Positions 29,849 through 29,963 of a stretch of DNA of 30,399 nucleotides are shown in pieces. The notes below the pieces were generated by a model, which made no database searches, had not been told where the DNA came from, and worked only from the letters and a program-made list of their open reading frames with translations. Every line of letters begins with the position of its first letter. Position 1 is the stretch's first letter. Origin of the DNA: a virus; IMG/VR virus record IMGVR_UViG_3300037516_000531, positions 1 to 30,399 of that record; one strand, 5' to 3'. Both the position numbers and the translations under genes were made by a program.

Positions 29849-29963
29849 TGTTCAGGGTGTTCAGGTTGTCGGGGTTATTTATTTATTATTTTAAAAAAAA
29901 AAAAAAAAAAAAAAAAAAATCAAAAATAGTGTTTAGACCCCGACACCCTGAACACCCTGAACA
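29849..29963. repeat. 27-bp inverted repeat of iteron-like 9-mers around an AT-rich core
   Basis: The left arm 29849-29875 and right arm 29937-29963 are reverse complements at 26 of 27 positions. Each arm is three 9-mers: TGTTCAGGG, TGTTCAGG(T/G), TGTCGGGGT. The 61-bp core between them is almost all A/T and contains the A27 run. It lies in the 152-bp stretch without genes between 29834 and 29987. As RNA it would form a very stable long hairpin with a U27-containing loop on the minus strand. Candidate origin, regulatory element or long terminator; the function is unknown. Confidence 0.85.
29893..29919 (+). repeat. Run of 27 consecutive A
   Basis: An uninterrupted A27 tract in the core of the inverted repeat, preceded by TATTTATTTATTATTTT. 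Homopolymers this long are very rare in phage genomes and unstable in copying. It could be an unwinding element or, if wrong, a sequencing or assembly artefact. Confidence 0.9.

Follow-up and report, generated by a model that had tools for sequence, protein, structure and literature searches.

An inverted iteron array in front of the replication operon

The window analyzed here, a stretch of viral DNA of 30,399 nucleotides taken from IMG/VR, carries virion genes on the plus strand in its left part and replication genes on the minus strand in its right part. The latter encode a PolI-type polymerase, a ribonucleotide reductase, an ssDNA-binding protein, an exonuclease, an SNF2-type helicase and a primase-helicase. 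A cargo gene of the same strand (25418-26557), for a 2OG-Fe(II) oxygenase, is found in some close relatives only. The first gene of the replication operon (29634-29834, minus strand) has its start codon 14 bp from a 115-bp element, hereafter E1 (29849-29963), and small ORFs approach this element from either side, to distances of about 25 and 15 bp. E1 does not occupy the only long gene-free gap among the minus-strand genes, as an earlier note on this DNA had it, since a similar one lies at 16826-17141.

E1 consists of an A/T-rich core flanked by inverted tandem 9-mers. On the plus strand, the iterons TGTTCAGGG (29849-29857) and TGTTCAGGT (29858-29866) are followed by the variant TGTCGGGGT (29867-29875). 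On the minus strand, the variant ACCCCGACA (29937-29945) is followed by two copies of CCCTGAACA (29946-29954 and 29955-29963). The core (29876-29936), presumed to be the unwinding region, contains an A27 tract on the plus strand (29893-29919), whose length is 25-30 in close relatives. A palindrome of type TGAGTACCTTAGTACTCA (29967-29984), which takes the form TGAGAATCATTCTCA in the relative G045, adjoins the outer iteron and does so at both elements of related genomes. The arms (29849-29875 and 29937-29963) are 27 nt each, complementary at 26 of 27 positions (96%) and 61 nt apart, so that the dimensions given in the earlier note, A27 included, are confirmed. Its description of each arm as three 9-mers of one type stands for the tandem arrangement; the third unit, TGTCGGGGT, is only loosely TGTTCAGGG-like.

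This inverted repeat far exceeds chance expectation. Its score is 24, against 13 for the next-best inverted repeat in the remaining window and a maximum of 13 among 100 Markov (dinucleotide-frequency) shuffles of the window. When we searched for tandem 9-mers that recur in inverted orientation within 150 bp, E1 was the sole site, and 20 shuffles gave none. By these scans, nothing else in the window resembles E1, as had been claimed. The A27 tract is the only A/T run of at least 9 in the 30.4 kb, and the core sits in the 70-bp stretch of lowest GC content (13%). Nucleotide searches returned a single low-complexity match against phages and no match against plasmids.

Two of the encoded activities deserve attention. 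The first is the presumed initiator, an AEP-type primase (22513-24828, minus strand) with PriCT-2 and the SF3 helicase domains D5_N and DUF5906. The AlphaFold model of the full-length protein is poor outside the C-terminus (mean pLDDT 44), and its N-terminal part is similar to the NrS-1 prim-pol. The last 78 residues or so (684-761) are modeled with a pLDDT of about 80 and superimpose on the RFX winged-helix DNA-binding domain (1dp7) with an rmsd of 2.2 Å over 77 columns and a TM score of 0.81 of the target. The phage is thus predicted to encode the whole set of AEP primase, SF3 helicase and C-terminal winged helix. A Rep-type initiator found no match among the searched window proteins.

The second is an apparent split sigma factor, encoded in separate minus-strand genes: one product (28343-28867) has regions (1.2,) 2 and 3 and lacks region 4, and a protein of 98 residues (19744-20040) is its candidate region-4 partner. 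The model of the latter resembles sigma region 4 or -35 domains, with a best E of 0.1 and an rmsd of 1.7-2.3 Å over about 55-60 residues. At the level of sequence and fold similarity, the pair matches T4-type late transcription proteins, that is, a sigma factor without region 4 and a separate region-4 mimic. The region-4-like protein has an invariant N-terminal RLSDEE-DP motif; searches found no relative in cultured phages and one matching MAG contig in the genome collection.

Two copies per genome in related phages

The earlier note proposed looking for the same structure in related phages. It was recovered from more than 20 independent contigs of IMG/VR, where the coding strand has an uninterrupted run of 25-30 T. 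This recurrence excludes that the A tract of the window is an assembly artefact. These relatives are uncultured genomes and mostly incomplete. The outer iteron lies 43-44 nt from the tract, and the overall length is 110-115 bp in 23 of 24. Five contigs (L013, L015, L155, L177, L180) end inside the T tract, as expected for a repeated homopolymer. Another, L010, begins at the tract with an inverted piece, and assemblies break at the element systematically.

Every related record that spans the region contains two copies, inverted and 7-11 kb apart (G001, G011, G014, G017, G018, G009, G030 and the diverged G032). E1 heads the replication operon and the second copy, E2, heads the operon of the terminase large subunit, portal and structural genes. 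These two main operons run divergently and small early genes fill the region between the elements. Iteron arrays sought elsewhere in the related genomes were found nowhere outside the two elements. In each of the four longest records tested (G017, G011, G030 and G032), the elements coincide with the two 70-bp windows of lowest GC content. Inverted-repeat scans of two incomplete records, G026 and G024, found nothing. The E1 of G017 bears an E2-type 3' arm, hence sequence exchange between the copies occurs.

Some further features of these genomes can be mentioned. In contig L146 (G017), the terminase large subunit is encoded by two ORFs of 290 and 481 residues (10588-12896) directly after E2. 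The early genes of the same contig share a leader of about 90 bp, repeated at least three times, in which a hairpin TGATGGCCTGCGTGCAGGCCATTGCA is followed by TTGACCATAGTAGTATCA and then by the start codon; G030 partly retains it. In G034 (contig L263, 12272-12543), two adjacent inverted-repeat elements head the late operon, and their iterons GTATCCATAGTATCCA resemble those of plasmid pRN1.

What is constant among the elements is the 9-bp length of the unit, its tandem repetition and its inversion around an A/T core, and what varies is the sequence of the unit. The main version is TGTTCAGGG; it is replaced by TTTGCAGGG or TGTGTAGGG in G013 and G012, by TGTGCAGGG, TTTGCAGGG or TAGGCAGGG in G030 and G045, and by ACTATGGAT in G034. 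These changes are concerted, as the direct repeats of one arm, those of the other and, where both elements are readable, those of the second element are affected alike. Such a pattern is the mark of a DNA-binding protein and goes beyond what RNA pairing needs. Position-by-position complementarity of the arms is missing in G030 and in E2-type elements, each of whose units nevertheless stays iteron-like.

One could hope that covariation would point to the binding protein. The iteron change in G013 comes without an obvious matching cluster of changes in the primase C-terminus. When G013 and G012, with TTTGCAGGG, are compared with the TGTTCAGGG phages, the sigma-4-like protein differs and the primase C-terminus differs slightly; these differences follow phylogeny and decide nothing.

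Possible alternative roles in transcription, RNA structure and DNA exchange

The main alternative to an origin is that the element could be a transcriptional master switch. The replication and late operons would each have one copy as promoter or activator site, recognised by the host RNA polymerase with the phage split sigma factor. Each main operon is indeed headed by exactly one element, the T strand is the coding strand in the main clade as well as in G030 and G045, and we found no other operon-head motif common to both operons. Moreover, the core holds AATAAT or TAAAAT, five of the six positions of a -10 box, and the two sigma-like proteins co-occur in distant relatives. This proposal is weakened because, in the clade of L251 and G032, the element (GGGTCTAAAC, T run, AAAATAATAAA) faces the opposite way with respect to its operon, with a host-type promoter (TTGACA-16-TATAAG) standing between it and the first gene; L251 has in addition TGGACA-17-TATAAT. 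The symmetry of the element, with its inverted iterons, is also unlike a one-way promoter. The same layout is found at the sites of pRN1, Sfi21 and BPP-1, none of which is known to be a promoter of this kind. A T4-type late promoter (gp55/gp33), with TATAAATA at -10, was found neither in the window nor in G017. We therefore regard a purely transcriptional role as unlikely. The idea of a master control element, put forward in the earlier note, nevertheless keeps some residual weight, given that both copies head major operons and that the phage encodes sigma-like proteins.

A combination of origin and operon switch seems to us less probable still. In such a scheme, the SF3 initiator would melt the T27 tract at both copies and fire two outward origins, the opened core would load RNA polymerase with the split sigma factor, and replication would thereby turn on the replication and late operons.

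It is very doubtful that the element acts as RNA, a giant hairpin in the leader serving as terminator, attenuator or processing site. The E1 transcript does fold strongly (-56.5 kcal/mol, z = -8.8), but this is expected of any inverted DNA repeat, and an Rfam search of the whole window gave no match. The terminator suggested in the earlier note is unsupported, the T tract being inside the loop and no U run following either arm. The direct repeats within an arm change together, which RNA pairing does not demand, and the 9-mer units are kept in the very elements whose arms lack strict complementarity.

A site of packaging, recombination or segment inversion, to which the inverted copies flanking the early region, the exchange seen in G017 and the position of E2 immediately before the terminase genes could point, appears just as improbable, since seven close relatives keep the early region collinear, which speaks against its inversion, and no recombinase was recognised among the searched proteins.

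A candidate replication origin and its known counterparts

We propose that the element is a DNA replication origin of the AEP-primase/SF3-helicase initiator type, present in duplicate, and we would give this reading a probability of about 0.7. It relies on the constancy of the 9-bp layout despite a changing unit, on the two A/T-rich copies per genome, on the type of initiator encoded, and on a layout shared with sites of pRN1, Sfi21, BPP-1, phi105, PS6 and A9Y that lie near the same type of enzyme. The earlier note had recognised iterons beside an A/T unwinding region as the layout of an origin, and this is the best-supported interpretation after comparison with the relatives and with origins of the pRN1, Sfi21 and BPP-1 type. 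The primase-helicase would bind the iterons through its C-terminal winged helix, and SF3 rings could assemble on the two arms, facing each other. The T27/A27 core would then melt and the exposed strands be primed. Finally, the phage polymerase would take over and the forks would exit the early region in both directions.

The cumulative GC skew, a check suggested at the outset, agrees in part. In six genomes its minimum falls in the interval bounded by the elements or at most 0.4 kb away from one of them; in close relatives it lies about 3 kb from E1 and not at E1. Such a minimum is compatible with forks moving out of the early region in both directions, but gene direction alone yields the same skew. 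Against an origin, one can also argue that a promoter would explain equally well the position of both copies at operon heads.

Another candidate lies nearby. A gene-free region beside E2 (about 9700-10400 in L146 (G017) and 650-1070 in L255 (G030)) contains conserved GCAAGAAGCRTGCCA-type repeats, to which G017 adds CATACCCTACTGGGTATAGTA repeats and G030 a DnaA-box cluster (TTATCCACA). This region could be an alternative origin or an early control region.

If the element is an origin, it provides a testable one for an uncultured phage lineage. Such regular duplication, with one copy leading each of two divergent operons, is unusual among phages, and a coupling of replication and transcription would be directly testable.

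A parallel can be drawn with the Sulfolobus plasmid pRN1, replicated by ORF904. Its 100-bp stem-loop, formed by a 21-nt stem and a 58-nt loop, is essential and suffices in another location; its authors describe it as iteron-free and stress that there is no direct proof of the stem-loop being the origin (PMC4234260). Re-reading the sequence, we found that its arms are tandem 9-mers, TTATGTCCA TAGTGTCCA. Like the phage element, pRN1 combines an inverted repeat of about 100 bp, an A/T-rich loop (58 nt in the plasmid), arms of tandem 9-mers and an AEP, SF3 and winged-helix initiator. Unlike it, the plasmid has one copy, which adjoins the initiator gene, two iterons per arm and no 27-nt homopolymer.

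The annotated origin of Streptococcus phage Sfi21 (NC_000872) likewise consists of inverted tandem TTAGTTAC repeats of 8-9 bp around an A/T core, beside prim-pol/SF3/Pox_D5 genes. It differs by its (AAAT)n core, its single copy and the encoding of the PriCT_1 and SF3 parts by separate genes. A stem-loop similar to that of pRN1 was predicted in phage BIP-1 (PMC4234260). In the Bordetella phages BPP-1 and BIP-1, this predicted origin has arms of TTGCCTCGT TTGCCTCGT, a 60-nt loop and, as in our phage, a PriCT_2 and D5_N initiator, but a single known copy and no homopolymer tract.

With its 27 + 61 + 27 bp, E1 has the inverted repeat of about 100 bp with a 50-80 nt A/T-rich centre, and the tandem arm repeats of 8-10 bp, that characterize these origins. 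It does not adjoin the initiator gene, being placed 5 kb upstream, in front of the operon to which this gene belongs; in L251, the element is about 0.7 kb upstream of the primase gene. We count adjacency as typical and not essential because the pRN1 stem-loop works when moved (PMC4234260).

Other cultured phages were surveyed, in a small and unblinded comparison in which the layout was absent from about half of the phages inspected. The primase gene of phage phi105 is immediately followed on its 3' side by TGTTACTTT TGTTACTT, and similar arrays lie near those of A9Y and PS6. Near its primase, 9NA has nothing more than a weak inverted repeat that lacks tandem units, and inverted-repeat scans of Isfahan, Flyfo, Vibrio 1.022 and Yara found no comparable element. 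KPP23 and Suzuki, chosen as controls, proved to carry primases too. For NrS-1, an 8-nt recognition motif that occurs twice, once per strand, has been proposed as origin (PMC7102993).

Two other types of origin were considered and set aside. Iteron-plasmid origins (Rep_3/RepA type) have longer direct-repeat iterons, whereas E1 has 9-bp inverted arrays and no Rep-type protein was matched among those searched. A P4-type origin, with a Toprim primase and GGTGAACA iterons, does not fit either, the primase matching AEP/PriCT-2 folds and not Toprim. The P4 replicon (ori1/crr) needs two separate iteron sites, and its iteron GGTGAACA presumably has TGAACA in common with the phage iteron. The P4 alpha protein is an SF3 initiator whose winged helix reads iterons and whose primase is of the Toprim type (PMC4234260). 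With this primase and a different iteron arrangement, P4 is unlike our phage; by analogy, its two-site replicon would still be the nearest precedent for a duplicated element. Altogether, these comparisons suggest a simple rule at the sequence level: an A/T core framed by inverted tandem repeats of 8-10 bp, in the vicinity of an AEP/SF3 initiator. Such a rule would unite the 'stem-loop' origins of pRN1 and BPP-1 with the iteron origins of P4 and Sfi21.
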